Assembly (NCBI GenBank): GCA_009602725.1
Contig: WELB01000117.1
Span: 371,264 to 435,263 of the forward strand
Direction: 5' to 3'
Length of the DNA stretch: 64,000 bases
DNA from: Spirogloea muscicola
Taxonomy: Eukaryota > Streptophyta > Zygnematophyceae > Spirogloeales > Spirogloeaceae
Positions 25,098-54,010 of this stretch are shown piece by piece. Positions within the stretch are counted from its first letter, which is position 1, and each line of letters opens with the position of its first letter. The notes beneath the pieces were generated by a model. The model did not search any database, was not told the DNA's origin, and saw only the letters and a list, made by a program, of their open reading frames with translations. The position numbers and the translations under genes are program-made.

Positions 25098-25103
25098 CTC
25101 CCA

Positions 25104-32577: not shown

Positions 32578-32650
32578 TTTTTGGGCTGGCTGTTCCAGCA
32601 GTTCCAGCAGCAGTTCTCTAGCCCCTATCCTCATGGGCGAGCTCTTTCTT
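32578..32650 (+). mobile_element. Plus-strand non-LTR tail joined to a minus-strand copy
   Basis: TTTTTGGGCTGGCTGTTCC with a short duplication (CAGTTCCAGCAG), then CTAGCCCCTATCCTCATGGG. It faces the minus-strand ORF that begins right after, forming an inverted junction. Confidence 0.6.
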
Positions 32651-33665
32651 CCTGGAAGGGGGTCCCCTGGCCAGAGCCAGAGGCAGCAGCGAGTGCGCGG
32701 CCGGCACGAAGGTGTAGCGCGCGGGCCATAGACCGCTGCGAGATGGCCAGGCGCATACGGTAGACCTGCGCTAGCGACCCAGCTGCAGGGAAGTCCACCG
32801 GCTCCCCATGGAAGCGACGGGCGATGGCGTGGCGGGCGAGCTGGTTGAGCAGCTCGAGCCACCGAGCGCCCAGCGCCCCGTGGGTGTCAATTGCCAACGG
32901 GAAGAACTCGTCTTCCCGCGGATGGTCGGCGTACTTTAGCTCTTTTGCCCGAGCGGCGCAGGCGCCCGCATACCCAGCCTTGGTGGCACATTGGACTGGG
33001 TGGGAACGGTCGTATGCGTCGGTGGTCACCACGTCCAGGAGAAGACGTGGCCCGCCGGCCGGCGGGATGGCCACCAGGTCAACGCGTCGAGCGTGGAGAC
33101 CGTCGGCCCTTTCCTGGAGCGGCATGACGCCGGAGTGCTCCGCTGCCACCACGAAGCCAGCCTCCACCAGGATGCCATGCAAAGCATCCCGGAGGCGGTC
33201 GTGCGCCGCCGTCCGCTCGCCGCTGTGGGAACAGCGCAGGACATGTGCAGCCAGCTCGCCAGGCCCGGCCCCTCGCTCGCCATACTCGCATTGCCGCACG
33301 CCCTGGAGGCATGGAGGCGGCAGCCCCAGGAGCCGGTGGACGGCAGTGCGAAAGACCTCATCGGGGAGTGTGAGGACGTCATTGATGGGGAGGGCCTGGA
33401 GCCACGCCGCTGCCCCCGAAGAGGAGGCCGATTGAAGTCTCGCGCGCCCGCGCAGGTCGGCCTCTGGGAGCTGCAGCACGGCGGTGGTGTAGGCGGCCTT
33501 GTCGACCACGGCCGCGAAGCGCGCTTGGACGCGCAGGTCAGCGGTGTGCGCGAGGTGCGCAAAGGAGACCGCCTGGCCTGCCAGGTCCGGGTGCGCCGCG
33601 AGCAGCTCCTGGTGGGCGGAGCGAAGCGACACCTGGAACGGCAGCGTTCTGGAAAGGAAGTAGAT
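32631..33665 (-). pseudogene. Non-LTR family B, C-terminal zinc-knuckle and nuclease region
   Basis: A long open minus-strand frame of about 340 element-derived residues. In order: FAHLAHTADLRVQARFAAVV, a conserved LPDEVFRTAVHRLLGLPPPC, and the knuckle (QCEYGERG...HVLRC), where the second Cys of CxC is Tyr. Next are RRVDLVAIPPAGG and LLLDVVTTDAYDRS with a conserved Asp, AKELKYADHP with Lys, and FFPLAIDTHGALGARWLELL. It ends with YRMRLAI and ALHLRAGRALAAASGSG. The D...D...K arrangement after a Cys-His knuckle resembles the C-terminal restriction-like endonuclease of R2-type non-LTR elements; that assignment is inference. The normal terminal signature is replaced by an abrupt end (GTPFQEERARP), so the 3' end is rearranged. 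The first ~35 codons of the frame are family D tail sequence, not protein. Confidence 0.8.
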
Positions 33666-33669
33666 AGAC

Positions 33670-33870
33670 TGTCCAGTTGGAGGGACAATTCGTGTGCTCA
33701 AAACAAACGAAGGCCAAATGGCCAAGTACGAAGGCAAGCACATCTACATGACCTACAGCAGATTGACCCGCTCAGTAAGCACGGGTCAAAACATGAAGGT
33801 TGGTACTCGATGCCTGAATACTAGATGGCAGAAAGGAAGCCCTTCCTTCTGCCACCAACTAGAGCTCGCC
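33670..33870 (-). mobile_element. Family D, 3' end fragment
   Basis: Minus strand: ALHQKAGRALVGGRRKG frame, the stop-codon hairpin (TTGACCCG / CGGGTCAA near 33763-33789) and the D tail with GAAGGCCAAATGGCCAAGT near 33706. It abuts the family B copy. Confidence 0.75.
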
Positions 33871-34024
33871 CAGCTTTCTGGTGCAAAGCATTACGAAAGC
33901 GCGGCCAAATTGACTGGTGGCTGTGAGAGGCCAGCCCACAGGAATGGACAAGGTCTGAACGAGCCGGATGGCGCAGAGATAGAGAAGAAAGTGCTCGCCC
34001 ATAGAGGAAAGCAGCAGAAAGAGA

Positions 34025-34163
34025 AGGGCTCGCCCATTGAGAATAGGGTGGGAAAAGCCAGCCCAAAAAGGAATGAACAATTTACGAGAAGGGGCCAGGG
34101 GAAGCACTAAGAGAAACAAGCACAAGATGAAACTAAGCAGCTACGAAGCACTCAGTAACCCCT
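34025..34163 (-). mobile_element. Family B 3' UTR copy
   Basis: Stop region near 34155, then minus-strand CTGGCCCC, hairpin GGGCTGGCTTTTCCCACCC-like and the CAATGGGCGAGCC tail. A second tail piece (CTCGCCCATAGAGG) precedes it at 33994. It adjoins the interior of a family D copy at 34164. Confidence 0.7.
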
Positions 34164-34970
34164 TCCAGGCAGAGGGTGCTGAGCTCGCCACTCACATGCT
34201 GAGATGCCCCACTGGACCAGAAGTGGTGGGCAATCACAACCTCCTCCGCGATTCCCTGGCGGGCTTGATGCGCGACGCCGGCTACTGTGCGGTCGTGGAA
34301 GTCAACGATATCATGCCTATCACCACGGACGCCCAGGGACGTCATCATCGCTACACACTTGACATTGTGGGCGTGCAACCTGGTGGAGGACCACGAGCCC
34401 TGGTCGACGTTGTTGTTACGGAGGCGTATAAAGGTCCAGCATTGACACACATCGCTGGTCACGCAGTAGGCGGTGCAGAACAAAGAAAGCTGCAGGATTC
34501 CTCCGAATACCCCCAATGCGATCAGCTCCTGCCAGCGGCAATCGACAGCTTTGGCTGTGACGTGTAATTCTCACAGTCAGGCAGGCTTGTACCAGTGCGC
34601 TCAGGTCTGGGCTCACGCTTCCACACTCTCCTTCAAAACATTGCCAATCTAGGCTACACACGTCGTGCAGATGTGTTTCCGGCTGAGATGGGCTTGCCAG
34701 CTGCATATCTGTCGTTCTTGGACGCCAAGTTTCGGCCTGTTTGCAGCGTGCTCGGGCTAATGCCTTGCACCAGAAAGCTGGACGAGCTCTACTTGGTGGC
34801 AGAAGGGCTTTGTATCTGATATCAACTATTCAGGCATCAATAAGCGACCTTTACGTTTTGACCCGTGGTTACTGAGCGGGTCAATCTGTTATAGGTTATG
34901 TAGGTCTTTAGATGTGCTTGCCTTCGTACTTGGCCATTTGGCCTTCGTGTGTTTCAAATACACGAAATAA
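34164..34970 (+). pseudogene. Non-LTR family D, C-terminal region and 3' end
   Basis: Frame at 34164: ELATHMLRCPTGPE (knuckle end), LLRDSLAGLMRDAGYCAVVE, then LDIVGVQPGGGPRALVDVVV (nuclease-like Asp strand) and LLPAAIDSFG. A TAA stop at 34564 comes early. A shifted frame continues SDLYVLTRGY-type sequence to TGA near 34875. The stop lies in a perfect 7-bp hairpin (TGACCCG / CGGGTCA). The tail ends CAAATACACGAAAT at about 34968. This copy shows the full 3' end of family D. Confidence 0.78.
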
Positions 34971-34974
34971 TTCC

Positions 34975-35255
34975 TGCTAAGCAGCCTCAGGTCAGAGAAG
35001 CTTGGCTCCTGGAAGCGAATCCCCTGGCCAGAGCCAGCAGCAGCGAGGGCTCTGCCGGCACGCAGGTGCAGCGCGCGGGCCATAGACCTCTGCAGCGAGA
35101 CGGCCAAGCGCATCCGGTACACCTGCCCTAGCGACCCGGCTGCATGAGAGTCCAACGGCTTCTCATGGAAGCGGCGGACGCTGGCGTGGCGTAAGAGCTG
35201 GTTGAGCAGCTCGAGCCACCGAGCGCCCAACAGCAGCAGAAAACAAGGCACTAAG
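34975..35255 (-). mobile_element. Non-LTR family B, 3' end
   Basis: Minus frame 35251 to about 34980: GARWLELLNQLLRHASVRRF, AAGSLGQVYRMRLAVSLQRS, HLRAGRALAAAGSG and SDLRLLSRNY. The expected stop is displaced because family D tail sequence is joined directly after the Tyr codon. Confidence 0.78.
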
Positions 35256-35289
35256 TGCTAAGACGGCAGCAGGGGGACGCTCAGTAACC

Positions 35290-35645
35290 TCGAGTCAGTA
35301 GATGCAAATCGGAATAGCGAGGAGGCGGATAGACGTCGCCTGACGGAAGCCGGAGGCCGCAGCCGAACCGCGGCCTGCGCGCAAGTGAACCGCAAAGGCA
35401 AAGGACCGCTGCAAGGAAATGGCCAAGCGCATCCGGAAAACATGAGCGAGGGACCCGGCGGCATTAAGCCGGGCTGCTCGCCCTGCTGCCCGCGGCGGCG
35501 GGCCACTGCACGCCGCGCAAGGCGGTGAAGAAGAAGTGGCACTCCCAATGGGGGCAAGGGCTGCGAAAAGCCAGCCCAAAAAGAATTCACAAAGGTTCAG
35601 AGGGGCCTAAGAGCGGTGAGCAGCTACAAAGGGGCCTGAGGAGGA
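35290..35645 (-). mobile_element. Family A-like 3' end plus separate A tail
   Basis: Minus frame with AAGSLAHVFRMRLAISLQRS and VHLRAGRGSAAASGFRQA but a worn C-terminus near 35297. Upstream (35527-35642) lies a family A 3' UTR with the hairpin GGGCTGCGAAAAGCCAGCCC. Two truncated copies are stacked. Confidence 0.65.
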
Positions 35646-36120
35646 GGTGAAGAAGGTGAAGCATTTGCCTGAGCACCCTGCAAACAGGCCGAAACTCGTA
35701 AAGTGGAGGGCGATGGCTGTGATTAGCCAGCCCAGAACTGAATACTGAGAAGGCTTGCAGGCCGAGCCGGTACAATACCCGGGCGGCTTTTAACTGGGAT
35801 CGAGCACTAACGACCGGGGCAGATGGAGCCGGAGTCCGGAGAGACGGTGCCCGGTGTCCGTGACATCGAGGAAGAGACAGGGTAGACGCTTCCAGTAGAG
35901 GGCGATGGCTGTGAGGAGGAGGCTCAGCCGAGCCAGTCTTATGTCCAGTCACATTGCAGACTGAAGTAAGCAAGCAAGTGCAGACAGAGGGCGCAGATGG
36001 GATCGCGATTGTGTGTGCAACTGCTGGGCGACACTCTGTTAGTAAGAATGCGGCTGCTGATAAGCATAGCGGCCACCCGAGTGCACACAGAGGGAATTCG
36101 AAGATACACTACACGGAACC
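35646..36120. repeat. Tail debris before unit 4
   Basis: Holds two pieces of the third tail subfamily (AGAGGGCGATGGCTGTGA at 35707 and 35899) and a family E-like tail near 36050 (GCGGCTGCTGATAAGC). No gene recognised. Confidence 0.5.
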
Positions 36121-36643
36121 GTCATGGAGTCAGGGTAGTGTAGCAGCCCAGACTGACCCAATAGCAGTAGAAGTCAGCAAAGGACACTGCATTTGGAATA
36201 AGTATGTAGATGCCAGAATTCTTGGCACCCAGAAAACCTCCGATATGCCGATTGGGCTGAACGTCTTGCAGGATGAAGACAAGCATCTGACATTACTGGC
36301 TATGCTGTCCTCCTCACAATGGCAATATCTGCAGCAATCTATAACCACTGCTGTGACTCCTGAGCCGAACTGAGTTGACTCACGACAATCTGCCGCATTA
36401 GGCCTCTGCCTGCGTTATACCCTGACAGACTGACTACGGGAGCAGCATCACTAGAGCAGGGCTTAGTCACATTGATGCAAGCTGAGAGATGTGCCTGTGC
36501 CATTCTGACGAGATATTGTTGACTAGCAAAGCAAAGAAGGGAGTGGCTGTTCACGTTGCGAACTCAGTAGAGACATGTGCCATCCGCTTCCTGCCAGCAG
36601 CTTTCAACGAAGAAATGAATAGAACATATCATATACCATTCTC
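36121..36643. repeat. Unit spacer, copy 4 (truncated)
   Basis: Spacer from GTAGCAGCCCAGACTGACCC onward, matching 5454-5942. Unlike in the other units, no RT fragment is attached on its left. Confidence 0.7.
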
Positions 36644-36804
36644 ACGATGGACTCGAAATTTGTAAGAGTATTTATGAGCTAGACCACAGTCGGCCTCCCA
36701 TCGCTCTTCCACCCTCTCCAGACGAGCTACTCTTGTGATGCTTGCAACATCTTGCGGGAGCTGTTTGACCTTTCTATAAGCGAGGCCAGCCACATGCACA
36801 TATG

Positions 36805-38623
36805 CTAGTTGGCTGCAAGCGCTAAGAGGTCCGCAATCATCTGGATGATGATTACTTTTTCGGGGCCCCGCCTAAAACAGCATAAGCGCACAATCTGCAG
36901 GCTTGTGCATGGGCTTACCAAGCGAGAGATACTCTGATATAGACTCTCACCTCCATATATATGGCCGTCCATTGCCACCTCTGAAGGGCATGGAAGTCTC
37001 AGTAATCTGTCCTCAGTGCACCATCTATCCTCAGTCCTTGAAAAGGGCACTTTATCAAGCTCCAGGCTAACAAGCTTACTGCAATTGGCAAGAACTGTTG
37101 ACCAGTCCAACTCGCTTGTTTGCAGAAGAAAGTCTTCAGCAAGTCGAAGTTTTGAAAGGCCAGAGCACCAGCCGCCGAGTTTCCAGAAGCCGAGCATACT
37201 ATTCCAGAAGCCGGGCATACTATCGTCTGTGGCCCAACAGTGATCAAGGTCCAGGGAACGGAGCGATGAAAGACTGGTAGGGAAGTACAAGTCCGTCCCA
37301 CAGAAGAAAATGTTCTTCAGACGAAGAGCCACCAAGTGGGGGGTCTTGGCCAAGAAGGCACCCAAATGCAGGGCTGTCACTTTCCACTCTTCCATACTCA
37401 GCACCGAAAGGGATGAGAGCTCGTCGCAAGCGAGCAGCCACGGATCGAGGGCACCACGTGAGCCATAAATGTGAAGTTCTTGCAACTGCGAGCAAGAGGC
37501 AGCTAGGCCCTTGATAGCATCAGTCGTGTCATCGTCTTCTGAGATTCTTATCTCTACTATCTGCAATTTCGAGAGTTTGGCTGCAGCTGACTCTGACAGC
37601 AGCCCGTGGCGAATCCAGGGCCTGCAGCTGTGCAACCGCGTCAGCGAGCTGCATGATGACATTAGCGCCTCGGAGGAGACTGGCAACAGCCTTGGACAGG
37701 CTTGAAGGCCGACCTGCTGCAGCAGCGGGCAAGCGGAGGCCAGCGCAATAATCCCGGCGTCTGTGATGTTCCCACAGCCAGTCAAGCGGAGCGATTGTAG
37801 CTGCGGCAAATTGCTGGCGATGTATAGAAGTCCTGCATCTGTGAAAGATCTAGAGGGCCGCGTGAAGATATCAAGCTCCAGCTCCGTGAGACGCTTGCAA
37901 GAAACAACGATACTTTGGATGTCCGCGTCTGCAGAAGGCGTTATCGATCAGACCGGCCCAACAAATGCCCACTATTTACAAGAAGGGTAGGCGGATTTGC
38001 GCTGCAGTAACAAGGTATCGAACACATCATAATGCAAGCATCTAGGTCATAGCATGGAGTACAGAGTAGTGTAGCAGCTTACCAGAGAAGTCGCACGAAA
38101 TCATGGAGAGGCTCTCAAGAACCGTGAGCTGGGCAATGACGGGAACCAGAACGGCCGGGGGGTGCTGGAGAACCAGCCCCCGCACGATCCGTGCATGGGC
38201 AACGCGATCGTTTAGGCCCTCAATCAGCTGCTCTTCCTGTACGTGAATGTGTTCATGATGTTGGCACTTGGACCGCAGGGTGACCCGCAGGTCTGATAGT
38301 GCAGTGGCGGCCGTCAGCGAGCGGAGGTCGGAGAACGTCGCGAAAAAGTGGACGGTGAGGCGCAGCCGCGCGAGATTCGGGAAGGCTGTGGCCAGCGCCG
38401 GGCCGAGCTCCCGCTTCTTGAGCACCGACGGCACCTGCCGTGCCCGGAGCTGCCTGCGCTCGCGCAGTGCGAGCTCGGTGACGGAGGCCTTGACCAGGCG
38501 GCGCCAGCGGCGGCAGACGTGCGCGAGCGGGTGCCAGCCGGAGGCGCCGAGCGGGGCGTGGGCGGGCGGCGAGGCGGCGCGGGCGAGGATCGCCGCCAGG
38601 CACTCGTCCGGCAGGCCCTCCAT
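36805..38623 (-). CDS. F-box/LRR protein, best-preserved copy of the array
   Basis: Likely substrate receptor of an SCF ubiquitin ligase, binding Skp1 through the F-box and the target through LRRs. Exon 1 (38623-38083) encodes MEGLPDECLAAILARAASPP, LAHVCRRWRRLVKASVTELA and an N-terminal LRR block to SMISCDFS. A 154-bp intron (donor GTAAGC, acceptor CTGCAG) leads in phase to exon 2 from 37928: DADIQSIVVSCKRLTELELD, LPQLQSLRLTGCGNITDAGI, CPLLQQVGLQACPRLLPVSS and further repeats to IIIQMIADLLALAAN. About 550 residues. Relative to copies 5 and 6, a one-base deletion near 36815 cuts off the last ~60 residues (LAYVHVAGL to the ENGI-type end), so the C-terminus is truncated or the assembly has an error. 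A small in-frame duplication (FWNSMLGFWKLGG) is near 37195. The only copy open through the F-box and nearly all LRRs. Confidence 0.72.
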
Positions 38624-38779
38624 GGAGGGCGAGCGTCGGGGCGAGCGCTGGCCGGCTCTGGAAGGGGAAGGGGTCGCGCGGTACGCATTGACATGAGAAG
38701 GCGGCCTGGCCGAGCCAATATTATGTCACTCGGGCGAAGCCAATCCAAGCCAAAAGCGCCGTCTCAGATGTGGGGTAAT

Positions 38780-40205
38780 GAACCACTCAATAAGCACGAG
38801 AGCATTGGGAGAGCTGTTCCTTCTTCTTCACCTGCGACGGCGTCTGGCGGGTCAACGGCTTTTCTTTCCTTTTTCCTCCGACTCGCAGGCGCAGGCGCGA
38901 TACATGGCTGCTGTGGACAAAGCGGCGTTCACGGACACGCTGCAGCTCCTCCCCGCAAGCGACGTGCGCGGCCGTGCTCGGCTACTGTCGGCCGCCTCCC
39001 CCGGCGCGGCAGCCTGGCTCTCTGCGCTCCCACTGTTTGATGCGCTCAGGCTGCCGGACGAGCTGTTCCGCACGGCCACGCATCGCCTGCTGGGCCTCCC
39101 CCCGCCCTGCCTGCTGGGCGTGCTGCAGTGCGAATGTGGGGAGCGGTCGACGGACCCGGCGGAGCTGGCGGCGCATCTCCTCCGCTGCGCCACTGGAGGC
39201 GAACGAACAGCTGCGCACGACCTCTTGCGTGATGCTATGTTCGGGATCTTTCAGGAGGCGGGCTACACGGTGGCGATGGAAGCGGCTGCTGTTATGAAAG
39301 AATCGGCTGTGAAATGCCAGCCAGATGCATACAGGTGTTCATGACGGAGCCAAAGGCTAGGCAGACAGGGCGCCCTCAATACCCCCGTGTCAGCAGTAGG
39401 AAGTCAGATGAGCTGAGGGGAGGAAGAGCAACCCCGCTGCGCAAGCCAGAGGCTGCTGCAAGGGCGCGACCAGCGCGGCGGTGCAAAGCAAGCGCTTTGG
39501 AGCGCTGCAGGGACATAGGATGAGATGGAGAACGCCTCGGTCATGCCCATCCTCGAGAGGGCTGACGAACACCATACGCGTCGTGTGGACCTGGTGGCGT
39601 CCACGCCGGGAGGTGGCGCGCGGATCATAGCCGATGTAGTCACCACCGATGTGGTCGACCGCTCCAACCTGGGGCTCTCTGCCTCCCGGGCCGGCCACGC
39701 TGCCTCGAAGGCCGCTCGCTGCAAGGCGGCCAAGCACTCCGACCACCCACCTGCCGACGAGTTCGTCCCCTTGGCGGTGGACGTGCACGGGGCTCTTGGG
39801 TCCCAGTGGCTTGACCTATTGGCTAGGCTTGCGCGGCGGGCTGTGTCCCGCAGACGCGGCGAGCCAGCCGACTTCAACGCCGCGGGCTCGTGGGCTCAGG
39901 TATATCGGATGCGCCTCTCTGTATCCCTGCAGCGGTCCATGGCCCACGCTCTGTATCTGCGAGCTGGCCGTGCTCTCGCTGCGGGCTCTGGCTTTCGTCA
40001 GGGTGATAGCTTCCCGGCAGCTAGTCTGTCGGATCTGAGGCTCCTCACTCGTACGTACTGAGTGATCTATCCTCCCCCTGTTTTACCATAGCATCCTCAG
40101 GCCCCATAGTAGCTGCTCACCGCTCTTAGGCCCCTCTGAACCTTTGTGAATTCTTTTTGGGCTGGCTTTTCGCAGCCCTTGCCCCCATTGGGAGTGCCAC
40201 TTCTC
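38780..40205 (+). mobile_element. Non-LTR family A, longest C-terminal copy
   Basis: Plus-strand frame from about 38895: TLQLLPASDVRGRARLLSAA, LPDELFRTATHRLLGLPPPC, the intact knuckle CECGERSTDP...HLLRC, AHDLLRDAMFGIFQEAGYTV. A family E fragment (39281-39523) interrupts it. It resumes MENASVMPILERADEHHTRR, VDLVASTPGGGARIIADVVT, PLAVDVHGALGSQWLDLLAR, GEPADFNAAGSWAQVYRMRL and SDLRLLTRTY, stop at 40059-40061. The 3' UTR and hairpin tail end near 40205. This copy is the reference here for family A: knuckle, nuclease-like region, terminal signature. RT is not included. Confidence 0.85.
39281..39523 (-). mobile_element. Family E fragment nested in family A
   Basis: 243 bp flanked by GATGGA (39275-39280 and 39524-39529), interrupting the family A frame at VAME|ENAS. 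On the minus strand it encodes SLQRSKALALHRRAGRALAA and SSSDFLLLTRGY with stop. The tail contains GGCTGGCATTTCACAGCC and ends AGCAGCCGCT. The sister A copy at 53385 shows the uninterrupted sequence. Confidence 0.85.
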
Positions 40206-40244: not shown

Positions 40245-43200
40245 TCTTTTCCACAGCTTGGACCGCCGAGGTCCGCGCAGAGGGCACTTACCGCGTGCGT
40301 TCCTTCGCGGCCCCTTCTCTTAATACACACGCATTCTTCTTCCACTTCTCCCTCGCAGCCGCTTGTCCTTCACGGCTTCACACAACCCCCCCTNCCCTCT
40401 CCGCCCCGGCCCCCGCCGTTGCCGCCGCCCACCGCTGGCCCGACCCCATCGCCATGGCGGCGTCTGCCGAAGGGCGAAACGCGGCGCGCAGCCCGCCGCG
40501 GCGTGCCACTCGCCCTTACGGCACCCGCAGCTCAACGGCTTCGACGAGGGCTGCCGTTGCCCCAGGGGCCGACCTTCTCACTCCTTCAACGGCCCCTTCA
40601 GCTTCTTCACGCTCCTCCCCAACGACGGCCGTGGAGCCCGAGCCCCTCCCTGCCGTCCCTGCTTCTGATGAGAACGCTCGGCTTGCTGACCCCGGCTTGG
40701 CCTCCTCGACCAATCCCCTCATCCCTCCCGCCTTTGCTGCTGCCTCCCATTCCTCCAGCAGCTCCTCCGGGAATGGCCGCAGGATGTGTCGTCAAGGCCC
40801 CCATCGGCGAGCCCCTCTCCCCCCCGCTTGGGGCAACCCTGGCTGCAGATCCTGCCCCTTCGGCCACCCAGCCCTTAATGGCCCCGGCCCTCCCGCCTCT
40901 CCTTCCTACTCCGGCCATTCCTGCAGCTGCAGCAGCTCCGTCCACAAGCCCTGCTGCAACAGCTGTCCCCCAGACCTGCCGGTACAGCCAGCAGCCCTGG
41001 CCTAGCCGGCGGGGCGTTTTCCTCCACGAGCACCACTGCTCCAAGAAGGCCAATCGCGCCTCGCTGCAGGCCCAAGCCCGTGCTGTGGCCTCTACCCCAC
41101 GATGGCAGCCTGGCACCCCAGTGCTGGCACCCCCTCCCCCAGCTCCCTCGCCGGCTCAGTGGCGTTGGGCGCAGCTCCTAGACCTGGATGCAGCTCTTCG
41201 CGAGCCCAGCCTACCACCCTTGGGGCGCACTCCACATTGGGCACGGCCCCACCTGCAGCGTGCAGCCCGGCCCATCCTCACCAGCATGGCATGCAGCAGC
41301 CTTGATGACGCTGCGTGGACGGTCTTCCAGCTCCACACATGGCCTCCCCATCTCTTAATATACACGCATTTCCTTTTACACAAAGTGTGCCAGGCGGTGG
41401 CGCGTGGCCTCCTCCCCCCCCCCCAAGGCTAGGGCGGCTCTGACTTGCAGCACTCTTCTCGCCCTTTCCAAACCTACAGGGGGCGTGCGCCCAATCGCCA
41501 TGGGCGAGGTGCTCACGCGCCTGGTCTCCAAGACACTCTTCCAGCAGCATAGGGAAGCGGCCCAGCTTCACTTCCCCACACCAGTTCGGCGCGGGGCTCT
41601 CTGCAGGAGCAGAAGCACTTGTCCATGGCCTGCCGGTTGGCCACGGACTCCAACCCTAGCTGGATGGCCCTCTCCATCGACGTCAAAAAGCTTTCAACTG
41701 CGTCGACCGCAGAGCAATTGCAGAGGAGCTCCGCTCTTTCTTCCCCTCGCTTGTCCCGTTCTTTCGTTGCACGTATGGGGCTGCATCTAGTTTACTATGG
41801 GCAGCGGGCACCTCGCGGGTTGTCCTAACATCATGCACGGGCACCCGACAGGGCGACCCTCTCGGCGGTGTCCTTTTTGATTTGGCTCATATACGTGCAC
41901 TGCGCACCACGGCGGCGGCCCACCCAGAGGTACTTCTGCCTAGCTATGCAGATGACACAACTTTGGTGGGCCCCCCTGCAGATGTCACCCGAGCCTTAAG
42001 CACCTTGGAGTGTGAGCTACAGTCTCTCGGCCTCAGAGTCCGCCCCGACAAATGTATGGCATGGTCGCCAGTCGGCATCCCTCCCACCCCTCAGCTTCCG
42101 GTAGGGTGCCAGAAACCCCCCAAGGGCATGGTGCTGCTTGGAGTCCCCCTGGGCGAGGCAGCATATGTGGGGCAGGAGGTGCAGGCTACCATCGAGCGAC
42201 AGTTTAAGACTCTCCCAGCCCTCCCCACATTGCATGACTTTCAGCTGGCTGTTGCTATCCTAACCTGGTGCGTGGTCCAACGCCCAACCTACCTGCAGCA
42301 GGCAGTTCCTCCCACCACCGCTCTGGATAACATCAATGCCGCTGCGGATGTCAGCCTCCAACAGGCTCTGCTCGGCCTGCTGGACCACCCAGCACTGCCT
42401 ACGACGCCTGCCGCCTCCTCCAAATTACACTACCCAAAGGCAAGGGCGGCCTTGGCTGCCGCACTCCGGCTCACCCTGGCTCGTGCGGCACACCTGGGGT
42501 TTTGGGCGCAAGTGGCCTCCACAACCTCAACGCGCTTCATCAGGAGGGGTCAGCCAGTACTGGCACCAGCAATAGCTGGAGTGGCACTTCCAGACCTCCC
42601 TCTCTGACGTTCGCAGAGACCTTCTCCGCTTCTTCCCATTACTTGCGGCAATCAGGTCGACTTTGCGACGTGGGCAAGATGCTCTGACCTGAACGCTCAA
42701 GCTCGTTCATCACGCGCAGCCATTGAGCAAGCCATGAGCCGCCTCCAAGCTCTGTTCAAGGAGGATGGGCGTGGGCTCTCTCGTCTCCACTCCATCAGCT
42801 CTCCGGGGGCGTCGGAGTGGCTCAACGCTTTTGCCGATTGACGAATCCCTCCGGCTCTCCGACGACCTCTTTGGGACGGCTGTCCATCACCATTTCGGCC
42901 TCCCTCCACTTTGTTTAGCTGGCATTCGACAGTGTGAATGTGGCCATCGTTTGGAGGATGAGATCTCTTTGGCAGCTCACATGCTTCTATGTGTTGCGGG
43001 AAGTGAACGTAATGCCTCCCACAATCTTCTCAAAGACGCTATGTATGGCTTGGTGCGCGAGGCAGGTTATCATGCGGCCATGGAGGTGCCAGGCATCATG
43101 CCATGGACATATACAGCGGCTACGGAACGAAGTGGTCTTCTCTCCTCCATTGCCTGGCACTGCATGTCGATGCCCGCCGACGTAGTCGGGCGGGTAGCTT

Positions 43201-43500
43201 AGGACATTCTAGCATCCCGCAAGCAATCGGTGCTTGCTGTAGAATGCGGCTATCATTGAGTCTGCAGCGCTCCCAAGCACTCGCAATTCACCAGCATGCT
43301 GGTCGTGCATTAGCCGGGGTTTTATGGCTTCCGTGGTGGTGGTTTGATTTCTCAGTATAGCTTGTCAGATATGCATGTGCTCACTCGGGGATATTAGTGT
43401 CCCCCTTAGCCAGCTCATACCCAGTTAACAGGACATTTGTAAAGCTAGATTTGGCCTCCCTTTCAATGTCATGCGCACCGCGCGCCTTCCCTCTTTCAGG
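40245..43500 (+). mobile_element. Near-full-length non-LTR retrotransposon (F-type end), frameshifted
   Basis: The most complete element here, about 3.25 kb. ATG 40454 starts an Ala/Pro-rich region with RPYGTRSSTASTRAA. Near 41015 a finger-like WPSRRGVFLHEHHC resembles the N-terminal fingers of R2-type elements. The RT follows: PTGGVRPIAMGEVLTRLVSK (41475), WMALSIDVK (41662), GTRQGDPLGGVLF (41838), SYADDTTLVG (41940) and a thumb with LHDFQLAVAIL. The frame closes at 42607. Further on are the knuckle CECGHRLEDE...MLLC (42928), EAGYHAAMEVPGIMP, then a deletion of most of the nuclease region, QRSQALAIHQHAGRAL (43265) and SDMHVLTRGY with TAG at 43395. The 3' UTR ends with ATGCGCACCGCGCGCC near 43490. 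Frameshifts near 41590, 41700 and 42600 and the deletion make it inactive. Confidence 0.85.
41334..41380 (+). repeat. Short repeat inserted in the RT element
   Basis: CACACATGGCCTCCCCATCT and TTAATATACACGCATTTCC interrupt the coding region between the Pro-rich part and the RT. The same block is at 3113-3155. Confidence 0.6.
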
Positions 43501-44961: not shown

Positions 44962-46943
44962 TCAGATAGCAGTCTCATGATGAATGCGAAATTTGAAAAA
45001 GTATTCATGAGCTAGACCACAGTCGGCCTCCCATCGCTCTTCCACCCTCTCCAGACGAGCTACTCTTGCACAATGCTCTGCAACATTTTGCGGCAGCCGT
45101 TTGACTTGTCTATATGAAAGGCCGGCCACATGCACATATGCTAGTTGGCTGCAAGTAGCTAGGAGGTCGGCAATCATCTGGACGTATACTCTCTCGGGGC
45201 AACGCCCAGAATAGCATAAGCGCGCAATGTGCAGGCTTGTGCATGGGCTCACCAAGTGAGAGATAGTCTGATGAACATCCTTACCTCCATATATACGTGA
45301 GTCCATTGCCACCTCGGTAGGGCATGGAAGTGCCAGTAACCTATCCTTAGTGCGCCATCTACTTTAAAAGGGCACATTACCAAGCTCCAGGCTAACAAGC
45401 TTACCGCAATGGCAAGAATTGTTGCCCAGTCCTTGCTAGGTGGCAGATAAAAGACCTCAGCAAGTCGAAGTGCAGAAAGGCCAGAGCACCAGCCGCCGAG
45501 CTTCCAGAAGCCATGCATAATATCGTCTTCGGCTGAACAAAACTCAACGTCGAGGGACCGGAGCGATGAAACACTGGTAGGGAAGTACAAGGCCGGCCCA
45601 CAGAAGTGAATCATCTTCAGACGAAGGGCCACCAAGTGGGGGGCCTTGGCCAAGAAGGCATCCAAATGCAGGGCTGTCACCTTCCACCCTTTTAAACTCA
45701 GCACCGAAAGGGATGGGAGCTCGTTGCAAGCGAGCAGCCACGGATCGAGGGCACCATCTGAACTACCATCAATGTGAAGTTCTTGCAACTGCGAGCAAGA
45801 GGCAGCTAGGCCCTTGATTGCATCAGTGTTGTCATCATTTTCTGAGATGCGTATGTCTACTACCTGTAACCTTGAGAACTTGGCTGCAGCTGACTCCGGC
45901 GGCAGCCCGCGGCAAATCCAGGGCCTATCGCTGAGCAACCGCGTCAGCGAGCAGCATGATGACGTTAGCGCCTCAGAGGAGACTGGCGACAGCCTTGGAC
46001 AGGCTTGAAGGCCGACCTGCTGCAGCAGCGGGCAAGCGGAGGCCAGCGCAATAATCCCGTCGTCCGTGATGTTCTCCCAGCCAGTCAAGAGGAGCGATCG
46101 TAGCTGCGGCAGCAAATTGTTGGCAATGTATAGAAGTCCTGCGTCTGTGAGAGAACCAGAGGGCCGCTTGGAAATGCTAAGCTCTAGCTCCGTGAGACGC
46201 TTGCACGAGACGACGATAGCTTGGATGTCCTCGTCTGCAGAAGGCGTTGTCGATCATACCGGCCCGTCAGTTCCCATCGTTTAACATGAAGGGAAGGCGG
46301 ATTTTCGCTGCAGTGACAGGGCATTGACCATCTATATCGAGCATCTAGATCAGAGCACGTACTACAGAATAGGTTAGCAGCTCACCAGAGAGGTCGCACG
46401 AAATCATGGAGAGGCTCTCGAGGACCTTGAGCTCGGCAATGACGGAATCAGAACGGCTGGGGGGCGCTCGAGAACCAGCCCCCGCAGAATCCGTGCATGG
46501 GCGACGAGAGCACTTAGACCGTCAATTAGCCGCTCTGTCGGTACCTTAACGTGTTTCCAGCATTGGCACTTGGACCCCAGGGTCACCCGCAGGTCTGAGA
46601 GTGCAGTGGTGGCCGCCAGCGAGCGGAAGTCGGGGAGAAGTGGACCCCGACTTCCGCTCGCGGAGTAGTGGACGGTGAGGCGTAGCCGGGCGAGGTTCGG
46701 GAAGGCTGTGGCCAGCGCCGGGCCGAGCTGCCGCTTCTTGAGCACCGACGGCGGCTGCCATTCCCCGAGCTGCCTGCGCTCGCGCAGCGCGAGCTCGGTG
46801 ATGGAGGCCTTGACCAGGCGGCGCCAGCGGCGGCAGACGCGCGCGAGCGGGAGCCAGCCGGAGGCGCCGTGCGGGGCGTGGGCGGGCGGCGCGGCGGCGC
46901 GGGCGAGGATCGACGCCAGGCACTCGTCCGGGAGGCCGTCCAT
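44962..46943 (-). pseudogene. F-box/LRR gene copy 5
   Basis: ATG 46943: MDGLPDECLASILARAAAPP, LARVCRRWRRLVKASITELA, VLKKRQLGPALATAFPNLAR, DLRVTLGSKCQCWKHVKVPT, RGLVLERPPAVLI. A frameshift near 46455 then breaks exon 1. Exon 2 is open from LPQLRSLLLTGWENITDDGI to about 45410, where another frameshift occurs. The C-terminal LAYVHVAGLSYRQVKRLPQN to FRIHHETAI is intact and ends at 44962. Two frameshifts relative to copies 4 and 6. Near 46630 a short inverted repeat of the sequence GGAAGTCGGGG...CCCCGACTTCC is present. Confidence 0.82.
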
Positions 46944-47034
46944 GGCGGGCAGAGCGGCGAGAAGACTGCGGCTGAGATGAGCGCGCCGGAGCGAGAGCTG
47001 GACCGGCTCTGGAAGAAGAAAAAAAGAGAAAGCG

Positions 47035-47275
47035 GCTGCTGATATGGAAGAAAGAGGGAGAGACACTTTCAGAACTTACGATACACCACCGTGCTGGGCG
47101 TGAAAGAAGAATTGCTCGCCAATCGAGGATAAAGAAGAAGGCTCGCCCATAGAGAAAGAGGGGCTGACAAAGCCAGCCCAAAAAGAATGAACAAAGTACT
47201 AGAAGGGGGCCAGGGGAAGCAAAATAAGCACAAAAAGAAACAAAGCAACTACGAATCACTCAGTGACCAGAAAGT
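47035..47275 (-). mobile_element. Family E tail piece and family B 3' UTR
   Basis: 47030-47050 carries the family E tail end (AAAGCGGCTGCTGATATGGA). 47143-47270 is a minus-strand family B 3' UTR with GGGCTGACAAAGCCAGCCC and CTCGCCCATAGAGAAAG. Both are non-coding. Confidence 0.65.
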
Positions 47276-47371
47276 GGAGTCCGGCACCTTGGGGGCAGAT
47301 TCTGGGAGGCCTTGCGGACAGTACTCCGCCCGCAAGTTCGAGCTTTGGGCGCCAGCTGCTGTTTGTGGAGG

Positions 47372-47440: not shown

Positions 47441-47475
47441 AAGACGCCCCTCACGTCGTCCGGGCTTGCCAACTA

Positions 47476-47859: not shown

Positions 47860-47971
47860 TACTTTGTTGTCGTCGGCGAACGTCGGCATGACGACGCCGG
47901 AGTGCGGCAGTGGCCTTCAAGGCTCAGTTGTGAGTCAGCGCAAAAGAGTCCTGCCAGTGGCAACACTTGGC

Positions 47972-48570
47972 CACCCCACAGGCCGGCGGGCCACGTCTTC
48001 TCCTGGACGTGGTGACCACCGACGCCTTCGACCGCTCCCACCCAGCCCAGTGTGCCACCCAGGCTGGGTATGCGGTCGCCGGCGCCGCTCGCGCCAAGGA
48101 GCTCAAGTACGCTGACCATCCGCCGGCAGACAAGTTCTTCCCGTTGGCCATAGACACCCATGGGGCGCTGGGCGCTCGGTGGCTCGAGCTGCTCACCCAG
48201 CTCGCCCGCCACACCATCGCCCGTCGCTTCCATGGGGAGCCTGTAAACTTCCCTGCAGCAGGGTCGCTGGCGCAATTCTATCGCATGCGCCTGGCCGTCT
48301 CGCTGCAGCGGTCGATGGCCCGTGCGCTGCACCTTCGTGCCGGCCGGGCTCTTGCTGCTGCCTCTGGCTCTGGCCAGGGGACCCACTTTCAGGACCCTAG
48401 CCTCTCTGATTTGCGGCGGCTTAGCAGGGATTACTGATATTTGCAGCTGCTTTCTTTCTTTCTGTGCTTTGTTTTCTTAGCGCTTCCTCTGGCCCCCCTT
48501 CTCGTACTTTGTTCATTCATTTTTGGGCTGGCTTTTCCAGCCCCTATCCTCAATGGGCGAGCCCTTCTCT
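47972..48570 (+). mobile_element. Non-LTR family B, young 5'-truncated copy
   Basis: 599 bp with CTTGGC duplicated at 47966-47971 and 48571-48576; the empty site is in unit 5 near 43789. The frame is open from the truncation to the stop at 48435-48437: GGPRLLLDVVTTDAFDRSHP, AKELKYADHPPADKFFPLAI, HGALGARWLELLTQLARHTI, RMRLAVSLQRSMARALHLRA and SDLRRLSRDY. The 3' UTR has GGGCTGGCTTTTCCAGCCCC and ends CAATGGGCGAGCCCTTCTCT. No internal damage in the remaining part. Confidence 0.93.
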
Positions 48571-48850
48571 CTTGGCGCACGCCTGTCGTAGATAGCACTT
48601 CTCCACCCTGCCGCTCCCTCTTCGCCTGAGAAGGTCACCCAGGTGGCCATACCTGACGGTAGGAGGGAGAGGGAGGCCTCCCGGAGCTCCTCTGCAATAG
48701 CACCGCGCTCCACACTGTCGAAACTGTTGCGCACATTATTAATTTTTGAAAAAGCTAAGACCTTCGATCAGGGTGCAGGTCCAGGGTGGCAAATACTCTG
48801 CAAACAACAGCTTCTTCACACTCCCTAACCCTGCATTGTACTGATGGGTC

Positions 48851-49750
48851 GGCCTGAGCCGGCCCCAAATGTTGCTGCCTGTGCAAGGCAAGCCCAAGTG
48901 GATAGAAGGGGCCGGGAAGCAGCACCGCAAGTGGCTACTCCGAATGGGTGCTCAATGACCCGTGCTCAACAGTCGCAAGTCGGAGTAACTAGCAGCCGGA
49001 AAAGAGTCACCAAGTGACCAGCACAATATGCATGTTTTGAACCCCTTTGCCTACACTGTGAGAAGGGTGCCAGTGTTGGTCAGCTATGTCGGACACACCC
49101 GCAACGGATGCAGCGGGGAGCACAAAAAGTCTTACATCACAGGAGCCTCAATATAGGTGGAATCATCGGGTTACTCTAGACCCCTGTCGACGTAGGACAA
49201 CGTAACAACGTTGCTCCGTTCACGGATCCAGAATACAGTAGCAGCCCAAACTGACCCTATATCAGTAGAAGTCAGCAAAGGATTCTGCATTTAGAGGAAT
49301 CCTGTAGATGTCAGAATATGTGACACCCAGAAAACCTCCGATATGCCAATTGGGCAGAACGTCTGGCAGGTTGCAGGATGAAGGACAATCATTCAAATTT
49401 GTGGCTATGCTGTCCTCCTCACATCAGCAACATTTACAGCAACCTATAGCCACTGCTGTGACTCCCGAGCAGAACTGAGTTGACTCACCAAAAACCTGCC
49501 AATCAGGGCCTCTGCCTGCGTATACCCTGACAGACTGACTTCGGGAGCAGCAATTCTAGAGTAGCACAACTGGAGCAGGGCTTAGTTCACATCAATGGCA
49601 AGCTGAGAGATGTGCTTGTGCCATTCTGACGAGATATTGTTGACTAGCAAAACAAAGGAGCGACTGGCTATTCACGTTGCGGACACAGTAGAGGCATGTG
49701 CCATCGGCTTCCTGCCCGTAGCTGTCAGCGAAGATATTGAATTGAACATA
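48851..49750. repeat. Unit spacer, copy 6
   Basis: Near-duplicate of copy 5 spacer. No gene recognised. Confidence 0.75.
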
Positions 49751-51730
49751 TCAAATAGCAGTCTCATGATGAATGCGGAATTTGAAAAAGTATTCATGAG
49801 CTAGACCACGGTCGGCCTCCCATCGCTCTTCCACCCTCTCCAGACGAGCTACTCCTGCACAATGCTCTGCAAGATCTTGCGGCAGCCGTTTGACTTGTCT
49901 ATATGAAAGGCCGGCCACATGCACGTATGCTAGTTGGCTGCAAGTAGCTAGGAGGTCGGCAATAATCTGGACGTATACTCTCTCGGGGCAACGCCCAGAA
50001 TAGCATAAGCGCACAATGTGCAGGCTTATGCATGGGCTCACCAAGTGAGAGATAGTCTGATGAACATCCTTACCTCCATATATACGTGAGTCCATTGCCA
50101 CATCTGTAGAGCATGGAAGTGCCAGTGACCTATCCTCAGTGCACCATCTGTCTTCAGTCATTGAATAGGGCACATCACCAAGCTCCAGGCTAACAAGCTT
50201 ACTGCAGCCGGCAAGCAGTGTTGCCCAGTCCTTGCTTGGTAAGACCTTAGCAAGTCGAAGTGCTGAAAGGCCAGAGCACCAGCCGCCGAGCTTCCAGAAG
50301 CCATGCATACTATCGTTGTCAAATCTGGCCGAACAAAGTTCAACGTCGAGGGACCGGAGCGATGGAAGTCTGGTAGGGAAGTACAATTCCGGCCCACAGA
50401 AGTGAAGCCTCTTCAGACGAAGGGCCACTAAGCGGGGGGCCTTGGCCAAGAAGGCATCCAAATGCAGGGCTGTCACCTTCCACCAACCTTCTAAACTCAG
50501 CACCGAAAGGGATGGGAGCTCGTTGCAAACAAGCAGCCACGGATCGAGGGCACCTGAGCCATCAATGTGAAGTCCTCCCAACTGCGAGCAAAAGGCAGCT
50601 AGGCACTTGATTGCATCAGTGTTGTCATCATCTTCTGAAATGCGTATGTCTACTACCTGCAAACTTGAGAACTTGGCTGCAGCTGACTCCGGCGGCAGCC
50701 CGTGGCAAATCCAGGGCCCGTCACTGATCAACCGCGTCAGCGAGCAGCATGATGACATTAGCGCCTCGAAGGAGACTGGCGACAGCCTTGGACAGGCTTG
50801 AAGGCCGAACTGCTGCAGCAGCGGGCAAGCGGAGGCTAGCGCAATAATCCCGGCGTCTGTGATGTTCCCACAGCCAGTCAAGCGGAGCGATTGTAGCTGC
50901 AGCAAATTGCTGGCGATGTATAGAAGTCCTGCATCTGTGAAAGATCTGGAGGGCCGCGTGAAGATATCAAGCTCCAGCTTCGTGAGACGCTTGCAAGAAA
51001 CAACGATACTTTGGACGTCCGCGTCTGCAGAAGGCGTGATCGACCAGAAAGACACCTCAATATCCCCTATTCTTACAGCGAAGGCGGAGTTTCGCTGCAG
51101 TGACAGGGTATTGACCATCTATATCAAGCATCTAGATCAGAGCACGAAGCACAGAAGAGTGTAGCGGCTTACCAGAGAAGTCGCACGAAGTCATGGAGAG
51201 GCTCTCGAGGACCGTGAGCTGGGCAATGACGGGAACCAGAACGGCTGGGGGCCACTGGAGACTCAGCCCCCGCAGTATCCGTGCGTGGGCAACGAGAGCA
51301 TTTAGACCGTTATTAGCCGCTCTGTCGGCACGTCAACGTCTTTCCAGCATCGGCACTTGGACCCCAGGGTCACCCACAGGTCTGAGAGAGCAGTGGCGGC
51401 CGCCAGCGAGCGGAAGTCGGGGAGAAGTGGACCCCGATCTCCGTCCGCGGAGTAGTGCACGGTGAGGCGTAGCCGCGCGAGGTTCGGGAAAGCTGTGGCC
51501 AGCGCCGGGCCGAGCTGCCGCTTCTTGAGCACCGACGGCGGCTACCATTCCCTGAACTGCCTGCGCTAGCGCAGGGCGAGCTCGGTGACGGAGCCCTTGA
51601 CCAGGCGGCGCCAGCGGCGGCAGACGCGCGCGAGCGGCAGCCAGCCGGAGGCGCCGAGCGGGGCGTGGGCGGGCGGCGCGGCGGCGCGGGCGAGGATCGC
51701 CGCCAGGCACTCGTCCGGGAGGCCGTCCAT
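49751..51730 (-). pseudogene. F-box/LRR gene copy 6 (nonsense in F-box exon)
   Basis: ATG 51730: MDGLPDECLAAILARAAAPP, LARVCRRWRRLVKGSVTELA, LR, then TAG near 51567 where the other copies have GAG (Glu). After this the frame is VLKKRQLGPALATAFPNLAR-like (MLKKRQ...) with a further break near 51305. Exon 2, by contrast, is fully open from about 51026 to the stop at 49751: DADVQSIVVSCKRLTKLELD, LRLTGCGNITDAGIIALASA and on to LAYVHVAGLSYRQVKRLPQD and FRIHHETAI. It gives the full-length C-terminus that copy 4 lacks. Confidence 0.85.
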
Positions 51731-51819
51731 GGCGGGCAGAGCGGCGATAAGAATGCGGCTGAGAAGAAGCGCCCGGGCGAGCGCTGGACCGGCTCTGGAA
51801 GAGGTAACCTCCAAGTAGA

Positions 51820-52001
51820 GAGAGAGAAGGCGCGCGGGGCGCATGAATTGAAAGGGAGGCCAATTCAAGCCAATACATTGTTCAGGCAGAGTCGAGTGCA
51901 GACTAAACAATGCTACATAATACGGAGACCTAATCTAAGGTACCTAAGATGACATTAGTACCCACGGGTGAGCACAAACAAATCTGACAAGCTAACTTGG
52001 G
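51820..52001 (-). mobile_element. Family F 3' end with 19-bp flanking direct repeat
   Basis: GAGGTAACCTCCAAGTAGA is present at 51801-51819 and 52002-52020. Between them the minus strand reads SLSDLFVLTRGY with stop, then a 3' UTR ending GGCCTCCCTTTCAATTCATG, GCGCCCCGCGCGCCTTCTC. Longer duplication than for the A, B and D insertions. Confidence 0.78.
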
Positions 52002-52020
52002 GAGGTAACCTCCAAGTAGA

Positions 52021-52115
52021 AAGAAAGTGCTCGCCCATAGAGAAAAGAAGTGGCACTCCCAATGTGGGCAAGGGCTGCGAAAAGCCAGCCCAAAAAGAAT
52101 TGACAGGTTCGAAGG
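52021..52115 (-). mobile_element. Family A tail (two stacked tails)
   Basis: GTGCTCGCCCATAGAG (one tail type) is followed by GGCACTCCCAATGTGGGC and GGGCTGCGAAAAGCCAGCCC (family A tail). Confidence 0.7.
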
Positions 52116-52690
52116 GGCCGAAAAAGCGTGGAGCAGCTACAAAAGGCCCATAGAGAAGGGGGCCTCGGAAAAGCCTCGAAGCCAGCCCAAGAATGGACAA
52201 GATTCAAAGAGCCAAAAAGTTGCTGAAAAGAATTAGAGGTTACCGAACGATTAAGAATGAATGATTAGTTCCTGCCGATCAGAAGAGAAGGCGCGCGCGG
52301 TGCGCATGAATCAAAAGGGAGGCCATATCAAGCCAAATTATCCCACTAGCTGCGTCCTGTGGGTCATGGATTTCGATCAGTACTTGCTGTTCAGAGATAA
52401 TGAAGCGCCAACTCGCACAAGACGCGGTAGATGAATATTTGAAAGGCTTGGCGCCTTACGGGCCGGGGCAGAAAGCAAGCGCGCCCGCCACCGCCGCGTC
52501 AGAGAGCAAGCGCGGCCAGATTGACTGGTGGCTGAATGGAGGGGCCCACGCGCGATGGCCCAACACGTGGCAGGCACGGGGCGGCCTCGACAGTGCCCGA
52601 GGGAGCAGGGAAATTGAACATTGAAACTGATGGGGGTGAATAGAGATTCCGGGCTGGCTTTTCGCAGCCCTTGCCCCCATTGGGCGGGTC
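52116..52690. other. Tail debris and unrecognised sequence
   Basis: A family F tail (GGCGCGCGCGGTGCGCATGA near 52290) in reverse orientation, other tail fragments (GGGCTGGCTTTTCGCAGCCC near 52652) and GC-rich non-coding sequence. No gene recognised. Confidence 0.4.
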
Positions 52691-52792
52691 ACTGAGCGGG
52701 TCACTTTGCTGTAGATTATGTAGGTCTTTAGATGTGCTTGCCTTTGTACTTGGCCTTTGGCCTTCGTTTGTTACAAATACACGAAATTCTTC
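52688..52792 (+). mobile_element. Family D tail fragment
   Basis: Begins at CACTGAGCGGGTCAC (right half of the stop hairpin) and runs through GATGTGCTTGCCTTTGTACT to AATACACGAAAT. Confidence 0.8.
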
Positions 52793-52849
52793 TCATTGGG
52801 AGTGCCACTTTTTCTTCAATAGAGATGGGAGGAGTTTTCCCAGCAGCTA

Positions 52850-53020
52850 GTCTGTCGGAATTGAGCCTGTCCGTCTCGCTGCACACAAGTCCATGGCTCG
52901 CGCGCTGCAACTGCGTGCCGGTCGTGCCCTAGCTGCAGCCTCTGGCCCTGGCCAGGGGACCCGCTACCAGGAGCCCAGTTTCTCCGACCTGCGGCTGCTC
53001 AGCAGGGGTTACTGAGTGAT
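52850..53020 (+). mobile_element. Family B 3' end fragment
   Basis: Frame ARALQLRAGRALAAASG, then SDLRLLSRGY with TGA at 53012-53014. Truncated at both sides. A family A copy follows directly. Confidence 0.75.
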
Positions 53021-53035
53021 TCGTAGCTGCTAGAC

Positions 53036-54010
53036 AAGGTGTCCTTCTTGGCCACGCTGCAGCTCCTCCCTGCAACCGACGTGCGCGGCCATGCTCGGCT
53101 GCTGTCGGCCGCCTCCCCCGGCGCGGCAGCCTGGCTCTCCGCGCTCCCCCTGTACGATGCCCTCCGGATGCCGGATGAGCTGTTCCGAACGGCCACCCAT
53201 CGTCTGCGGGGCCTCCCCCCGCCCTGCCTGCTAGGCGTGCTGCAGTGTGAATGTGGGGAGCGGTTGACGGACCCGGCGGAGCTGGCGGCGCATATCCTTC
53301 GCTGCGCCACTGGAGGCGAAGGCACAGCTGCTCACGATCTCTTGCCTGATGCAATGTTCGGCATCTTTCAGGAGGCCGGCTACACATGGCGATGGAGAAC
53401 TCTTCCGTCATGCCAATCCTCCGGAGGGCCGACGGACTTCACACGCGCCGTGTCGACCTGGTGACGTCCACGCCGGGCGGCGGCGCGCGCATCATCGCCG
53501 ACGTGATCACCACTGATGTGGTCGACCGCTCCAACCCGGGGGCTCTCTGCCTCGCGGGCTGGCCAAGTTGCGGCGAAGGCTGCTTGCAGCAAGGCGGCCA
53601 AACACGCCGACCACCCGGCTGCAGATGACTTCGTCCCCCCCTGGCTGTGGACGTGCACGGGGCTCTCGGGTCCCAGTGGCTCGACCTGCTGGCCAGGCTT
53701 GCGCGCGCGCTGTGTCCCGCAGGCGCGGTGAGCCGGCTGGCTTCAACGCCGCTGGCTCGTGGGCTCAAGTCTATCGTAGAATTTATCAGTATCCCTTCAG
53801 CGGTCCATGGCCCACGCTCTGCACCTGCGTGCTGGCTGTTCTTGTTGCGGCCTCCGGCTTTCATCAGGGGGATAGTTTTCCGGCAGCTAGTCTGTCGGAT
53901 CTGAGGCTCCTCACTCGTAACTACCGAGTGATCCATCCTCCCCCTGTTCTGACATTCTTTTTGGGCTGGCTTTGCAGCCCTTGACCCCATTTGGAGTGCC
54001 ACTTCTTCTG
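53036..54010 (+). pseudogene. Non-LTR family A, C-terminal copy with frameshifts
   Basis: TLQLLPATDVRGHARLLSAA, MPDELFRTATHRLRGLPPPC, knuckle CECGERLTDP...HILRC, MFGIFQEAGYT. A two-base loss near 53388 shifts the frame. It continues MENSSVMPILRRADGLHTRR, VDLVTSTPGGGARIIADVIT with further shifts near 53545 and 53705. It ends in a SDLRLLTRNY-type end near 53925 and the hairpin GGGCTGGCTTTGCAGCCC with the A tail. Confidence 0.82.

Follow-up and report, generated by a model that had tools for sequence, protein, structure and literature searches.

R2 elements, which are under development for transgene insertion (PMC12222951), are non-long terminal repeat (non-LTR) retrotransposons with a restriction-like endonuclease (RLE). 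In the available passages on R2 (PMC10499050, PMC12180492), the 3′ RNA is bound by N-terminal extension (NTE) -1, the N-terminal zinc fingers, the thumb and the linker; the C-terminal end is not named there, and no function is described for the residues after the nuclease. The RLE of long interspersed nuclear elements (LINEs) has its catalytic Lys in a KX2KY motif, the second Lys being less conserved, together with an upstream zinc knuckle (CX2-3CX7-8HX4C) and a GXW motif (PMC5678591). Dualen/RandI elements carry a PD-(D/E)XK-type endonuclease (PMC3636483) and are present in Chlamydomonas and relatives (PMC8226300). Utopia elements have been reported from Amoebozoa, SAR and Opisthokonta, the strength of their U2 preference varying by family (PMC4640811), and BLAG and R2NS are dispersed, R2-like animal elements without a fixed ribosomal DNA (rDNA) target (PMC7650587). 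Here, we describe several families of elements in a 64,000 nt stretch (the window) of the genome of the alga Spirogloea muscicola (contig WELB01000117.1, positions 371,264 to 435,263). To judge from their sequence, they are RLE-type non-LTR retrotransposons, and their proteins end in a shared decapeptide, S-D-x3-L-[T/S]-R-x-Y.

The explanation that fits best is that these are young, dispersed, single-protein retrotransposons whose terminal peptide acts as a latch, a reading to which we would give about an even chance. Conservation of the terminal peptide on a par with the reverse transcriptase (RT) core points to a regulatory or structural part open to single-change tests, and elements as young and abundant as these could become a model for RLE elements that need no fixed target.

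Terminal motifs in the window

A six-frame scan of the window found 17 matches to SD....[TS]R.Y, 15 of them directly before a stop codon; in 100 dinucleotide shuffles (N removed) the mean was 0.04, with no match before a stop. The ends named for five families in a preliminary description of this region were all recovered (Table 1): SDLRLLTRTY in family A (with A-like ends at 21137 and 53895), SDLRLLSR[N/G]Y and one SDLRRLSRDY in B, SDLYVLTRGY in D, SDFLLLTRGY in E and SDMHVLTRGY in F. Two further families, with the ends SDLFVLTRGY (J-type) and SDLHLLTRGY (H-type), were added by the scan. The same description placed the motif between 32631 and 54010 and directly before the stop in all five families. 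It is indeed found in that span, and also outside it (3019, 13829, 19214, 19748, 21137 and 60529), and two matches are without a stop: at 34967 the frame continues because another element follows, and in the A copy at 53039–53924 the codon after the motif (53895) is CGA. The B copy at 32631–33743 has an open reading frame (ORF) that stops short of the motif. Its motif lies apart (32535–32564), separated from the ORF by an inverted piece that, by eye, resembles a related 3′ end.

The D...D...K region attributed to families A, B and D is present in their window copies, and that of E and F was found in copies elsewhere in the genome (L050 for E; L030, L031 and L047 for F). The CxCG..H..C knuckle attributed to the same three families needs qualifying, as the window copy of D has no CxCG, which is found in a D copy elsewhere (L069), and the second Cys of the window B copy is replaced by Tyr.

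Organisation of the whole protein

Copies outside the window (loci numbered L0nn, apart from the relative L055 described below) are from the same 153 Mb genome. The long open frames have 1338 (L049), 1410 (L051), 1510 (L052) and 1490 (L053) codons, counted from stop to stop or, in L052 and L053, from the edge of the fetched piece. Three of them end in the motif (L049, L052 and L053) and L051 ends in SDLILLTCGY; in L050 the frame is lost before its end. All parts lie in a single ORF, in the order zinc finger(s), RT, zinc knuckle, RLE, helix, 17-residue linker and terminal motif. The N-terminal zinc fingers have the form C-x2-C-x11/12-H-x3-C, with two in L049, L051, L052 and L053, and one in L050 and L037 (the L037 piece is cut at its edge).

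Pfam detected RVT_1 in the long frames tested, at 2.3e-10 to 4.7e-18, and in one of four window fragments, the other three giving nothing. RVT_1 was the sole family above the cut-off in L033, L017 and five long ORFs, with no apurinic/apyrimidinic-type endonuclease (APE), RNase H or protease, although a diverged APE might escape Pfam and some of the frames are cut by the locus edge. A profile of the RT has R2 as its best match in the PDB (8.1e-9). The RT and RLE are predicted to be active enzymes, and their conserved blocks presumably resemble those of unnamed RT proteins common in invertebrate genomes.

Endonuclease and zinc knuckle

The RLE signature (RRxD, +15 D, +28–30 Kx2[K/H]Y, +25 GxxW) is present in all eight aligned rows, which comprise two each of families B and J and one each of G, H, I and E. 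Family F (L030, L031 and L047) has the same blocks with single departures, and D keeps both Asp residues and K-x2-H-Y. The second Lys of Kx2KY is His in J, F and D, and the window A copy reads KAAKH at this position. A knuckle of the form CxC-x12-H-x3-C occurs in 8/8 rows, with x11 in D, and GX2W in 8/8 rows.

Compared with the R2 group, the RT is followed in the same ORF by a PD-(D/E)XK-type endonuclease with Kx2KY, as expected; the knuckle does not have the CX2-3CX7-8HX4C spacing, and the GXW expected after the fourth strand is GX2W. The nuclease is assigned because of its motifs, and the predicted fold is only consistent with this: the order of structural elements in the model fits, at a predicted local distance difference test (pLDDT) score of 44–64 in the region. 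The earlier proposal of an R2-like C-terminal endonuclease in non-LTR elements is upheld by the signature in all eight rows and by the RT profile's best PDB match.

Conservation of the terminal peptide

Of 53 distinct ORF ends bearing the helix word, 38 have the motif (with Cys in place of Arg in one). The 15 without it include two stopped inside the motif, the interrupted B copy of the window, and broken, degenerate or unrelated frames. In 56 of 57 tails (32 of 33 when each distinct tail is counted once), 17 residues separate AGRA[LV] from SD when the motif is required and the length left free, a count in which L009 and L029 repeat window copies. Among the eight best loci of family D, six have an ORF ending in SDLYVLTRGY or SDLYVVTRGY, and the other two are the window copy and a broken copy.

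Across nine families, the ratio of nonsynonymous to synonymous differences (pN/pS) is 0.29 in the last ten codons, 0.63 in the preceding 13 (linker) and 0.31 in the 22 before those (helix). The corresponding pS values are 0.72, 0.70 and 0.72, so that synonymous sites are near saturation. The stop follows the same Tyr as TGA, TAA (J) or TAG (F). Near-saturated synonymous sites and three different stop codons show that selection acts on the protein, its end included. The most divergent comparison made was of family D with B, G, H, I and J, where identity is 48–60% in the RT, 41–44% in the thumb/linker, 52–70% in the knuckle, 39–43% in the RLE, 39–61% in the helix and 6–12% in the 17-residue linker, and rises to 70–90% in the last ten residues. 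When the alignment is scanned in windows of ten columns, the terminal block shares rank 13 of 703 with four others; the higher-ranking windows, 12 in all, fall in the RT blocks GGVRPI, FPSL and QGDPL and in the zinc knuckle. Conservation of a strictly terminal motif between diverged families makes it likely to be functional, and on this the preliminary description is in agreement with the pN/pS of 0.29, the D comparison and the rank.

Copies and insertion sites

Searches of the genome with three queries gave at least 111, at least 129 and at least 150 matches, the last for family D. Among 18 B copies compared with L017, which were taken from the 20 best matches of one search and are not a random sample, 13 are 99.3–100% identical over the aligned part and five are 87–98.6% identical. 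Base 2691 of L017 is the 3′ limit of nine of the 13 near-identical copies; eight of these nine have a 5′ end inside the fetched piece, and it falls at a different place in each. A common 3′ end combined with varied 5′ truncation is the mark of target-primed reverse transcription, as established for LINEs, which suggests that this process has operated here, and recently. These sequence comparisons indicate that the elements are young and dispersed.

Twelve copies were examined at both ends, and each has a 3′ flank of its own; no Rfam RNA was found in 20 loci (83,700 bases), so no fixed target such as 28S rDNA or the U2 small nuclear RNA (snRNA) gene was found for these copies. The longest word common to both flanks is 7 or 8 bases in 5 of the 12 copies (L010, L011, L012, L019 and L020) and sits at both junctions in L011, L019 and L020; uncorrected for chance, such words may represent short target duplications. 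Upstream of the B copies L014 and L019, the 136 bases next to the junction are identical, despite different 3′ flanks and 5′ truncation points. Candidate readings are that the same repeat was hit twice, or that one copy is chimeric. A long I-type element, L053 (L053:1-250, 4560-4620), has inserted into a B-type element, splitting the codons of its terminal motif.

Possible roles of the terminal peptide

On the latch reading, the helix and the linker of constant length would hold the peptide so that it docks, through Leu/Val/Leu and the terminal Tyr, in a groove on the RLE, knuckle or thumb of the protein to which it belongs. The observed features are the architecture, the conservation, the terminal position, the fixed linker length and the selection on the protein; docking and its place would follow from the conservation, composition and length. 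The latch is preferred because the peptide does not follow the RNA of the element and because the 3′ RNA of R2 is bound by other parts of the protein.

Several points weigh against this interpretation. Both structure models are poor (mean pLDDT 46.2 and 45.5) and neither shows docking; in the model containing the motif, pLDDT is 35–42 over the last 20 residues. The helix is about as constrained as the motif (pN/pS 0.31), which is therefore not unique, and constraints other than docking could also keep the linker length constant. The terminal peptides were sampled from one genome, and the sole relative outside it (L055, below) is without a C-terminus. The retrotransposon assignment has its own weak points: RTLD and GPRF of family D depart from the RLE signature, Foldseek places an R2 protein first among PDB chains at a non-significant E-value of 0.034, and L033 on its own gave no match to an R2 chain, its top matches being weak ones to group II-type RTs (E ≥ 0.1).

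A possible though unlikely alternative is that the peptide is a short linear motif with a free carboxylate that binds a host protein, such as an import or repair factor. It is short, strictly terminal and hydrophobic, and is kept across families as the linker diverges, all of which would suit such a motif; against this, tails with host-binding motifs usually tolerate changes of linker length, and here the length is fixed in 56/57 tails. It is improbable that the motif lacks a role of its own and merely reflects the shared ancestry of close families. Families B, G, H and I are indeed 62–89% identical in the thumb/linker and RT, but D, at 48–60% in the RT and 6–12% in the linker, still retains 70–90% of the last ten residues, and synonymous sites are near saturation among the nine families.

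The preliminary description suggested that the last ten residues bind the element's own 3′ RNA hairpin, an idea that is unsupported and that we consider slightly more improbable still. A GGCTG-type hairpin does lie near the 3′ end of six families (A, B and H by folding; E, G and I by eye, from the same word pair, the folded E stretch not covering the hairpin position). In families D, F and J the same terminal peptide accompanies 3′ ends of other kinds, so that peptide and RNA do not go together. The decapeptide consists mostly of hydrophobic residues, with one conserved Arg and one Asp, and the R2 contacts with 3′ RNA lie elsewhere in the protein in the passages cited above (PMC10499050, PMC12180492). 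Folded as whole stretches and compared with shuffles, D gave a z of -3.52, for a stretch that may include sequence beyond the element, and the other six gave -1.15 to 0.63, not clearly better than shuffled. Finally, the peptide could be the by-product of a conserved RNA element across the ORF end, since it adjoins the 3′ untranslated region that RLE elements use for recognition, but this is scarcely credible and already contradicted, as Ser is AGC in D and TCN in other families, Arg is CGN or AGA, and the pS of the last ten codons (0.72) equals the upstream value.

Other features of the window

The coordinates of the elements and of other features are collected in Table 1. Leucine-rich repeat (LRR)-like genes are repeated and, by eye, interleaved with the elements (6438–7244, 30706–31392, 36805–37947, 38042–38725, 45249–46253, 46404–47075 and 49751–51118 (-)); some have an F-box-like start (MEGLPDECLAAILARAA, by eye). 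Remains of a Copia-type element (RNase H and integrase-like ORFs on the minus strand, by eye) are found in 24764–27866, with a copy of a 37/76-base minisatellite on either side (24764–24965 and 27665–27866), perhaps within its LTRs. A run of N at about 19940–20936 (995 N in the whole window) lies between the opposed element tails at 19748 and 21137. Rfam found nothing in the window. The ribosomal protein L4 gene near 57 kb is most similar to that of plant ribosomes, which points to a host probably of the green lineage.

Table 1. Element copies, tails, terminal motifs and other features of the window
Position	Strand	Family	Feature
2902..3048	+	D	Tail; motif SDLYVLTRGY 3019-3048
13829..14095	-	A	Tail, SDLRLLTRTY
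19214..19243	+	A	Terminal motif SDLRLLTRTY
19748..19777	-	B	Terminal motif SDLRLLSRNY
21137..21166	+	A-like	Terminal motif SDLKLLTRNY
32535..32564	-	B	SDLRLLSRGY, terminal motif of copy 32631..33743, split from ORF by inserted stretch
32631..33743	-	B	Copy: linker, knuckle (second Cys = Tyr), RLE, C-terminal helix; ORF departs before motif
34151..34564	+	D	Copy: knuckle end and RLE
34687..34872	+	D	Tail, SDLYVLTRGY 34843-34872
34967..35239	-	B	Tail, SDLRLLSRNY, without stop
35284..35313	-	H-type	Terminal motif SDLHLLTRGY
38862..39308	+	A	Copy, upstream half: linker, CxCG..H..C knuckle, first RLE helix
39379..39540	-	E	Tail between two halves of A copy, SDFLLLTRGY
39519..40058	+	A	Copy: RLE from beta strands to C-terminal helix, 17-residue linker, motif SDLRLLTRTY 40029-40058, stop TGA; Kx2KY = KAAKH
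40159..40178	+	A	3′ hairpin of copy, GGGCTG-GCTTTTCG-CAGCCC
40965..43394	+	F	Copy: N-terminal part, RT 41660-42607, broken C-terminal part, SDMHVLTRGY 43365-43394, stop TAG
47934..48434	+	B	Copy: RLE part and tail, SDLRRLSRDY 48405-48434
48525..48543	+	B	3′ hairpin of copy, GGGCTGG-CTTTT-CCAGCCC
51958..51987	-	J-type	Terminal motif SDLFVLTRGY
52983..53012	+	B	Terminal motif SDLRLLSRGY
53027..53924	+	A	Broken copy: knuckle, RLE, tail; motif 53895-53924 without stop
54932..55270	+	F	Fragment: RLE end and C-terminal helix
56891-57745	+		Ribosomal protein L4 gene; closest PDB match, plant uL4
60529..60558	-	E	Terminal motif SDFLLLTRGY

Relationship to known elements

One query (A1) gave 29 pattern matches in viral contigs, none of them confirmed, and a degenerate RT pattern gave none there. 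The degenerate pattern matched ten stretches of genome contigs, one of which is a clear relative (L055:2-3442, plus strand): a single open frame of 1147 codons with FIDD in place of YADD, about 29–33% identical over about 390–408 residues, in which the C-terminus is absent. The contig is from a metagenome-assembled genome named Cyanobium, and its proline-rich single ORF suggests that it is probably a eukaryotic contaminant of the bin. For an RT tree, 26 RT stretches were thinned to six at 88% identity and joined by three references, D being left out. The five rows of this genome and L055 are separated (98/93) from the only references included, two R2s and one group II RT, in a tree with long branches and four of six inner branches open.

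We put forward, tentatively and as somewhat less probable than not, that the elements form an undescribed green-algal clade of RLE-only, dispersed non-LTR retrotransposons, in which a C-terminal latch (helix, 17-residue linker and free decapeptide) would be needed for nicking or reverse transcription by the endonuclease-bearing protein. Their distinction from NeSL, Utopia, Dualen, BLAG and R2NS is drawn from published descriptions, the RT having been compared with R2 and group II only. Among the matches listed by one literature library (titles and abstracts), nothing concerned RLE-only elements in green algae, and Dualen in Chlamydomonas surfaced. Dualen/RandI elements of green algae share the PD-(D/E)XK-type endonuclease; a placement with them by domains was rejected, as the APE that accompanies their RLE was not found by Pfam in L033, L017 or the five long ORFs. 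The Utopia/NeSL clade (Kojima and Jurka 2015, PMC4640811) is described with one to three N-terminal zinc fingers, RT, a C-terminal zinc finger and RLE, much as here; unlike its members, the present elements had no U2 gene at the copies scanned, which set aside Utopia by target, and no Ulp1 protease or RNase H was found in L033, L017 or the five long ORFs. BLAG and R2NS are also R2-like and lack a fixed rDNA target but are animal elements, and the comparison with them is by description only.

The R2 superclade (R2Bm, R2Tg and the R2 of Platysternon) offers the closest parallel, with a single ORF, N-terminal zinc finger(s), RT, linker, zinc knuckle and an RLE with KX2KY, and it provides the best PDB match of the RT profile. 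Differences are that no 28S site was seen here, that the knuckle is CxC-x11/12-H-x3-C rather than CX2-3CX7-8HX4C and GX2W replaces GXW (PMC5678591), that similarity in the RT is weak (8.1e-9 with the profile and none for L033 alone), and that a terminal decapeptide is present. Vertebrate R2 proteins have been used with C-terminal tags (PMC12180492); a free end, if it matters in the Spirogloea elements, would therefore be a difference from R2. A C-terminal latch, if real, would be a part absent from the passages describing R2 that are cited here.

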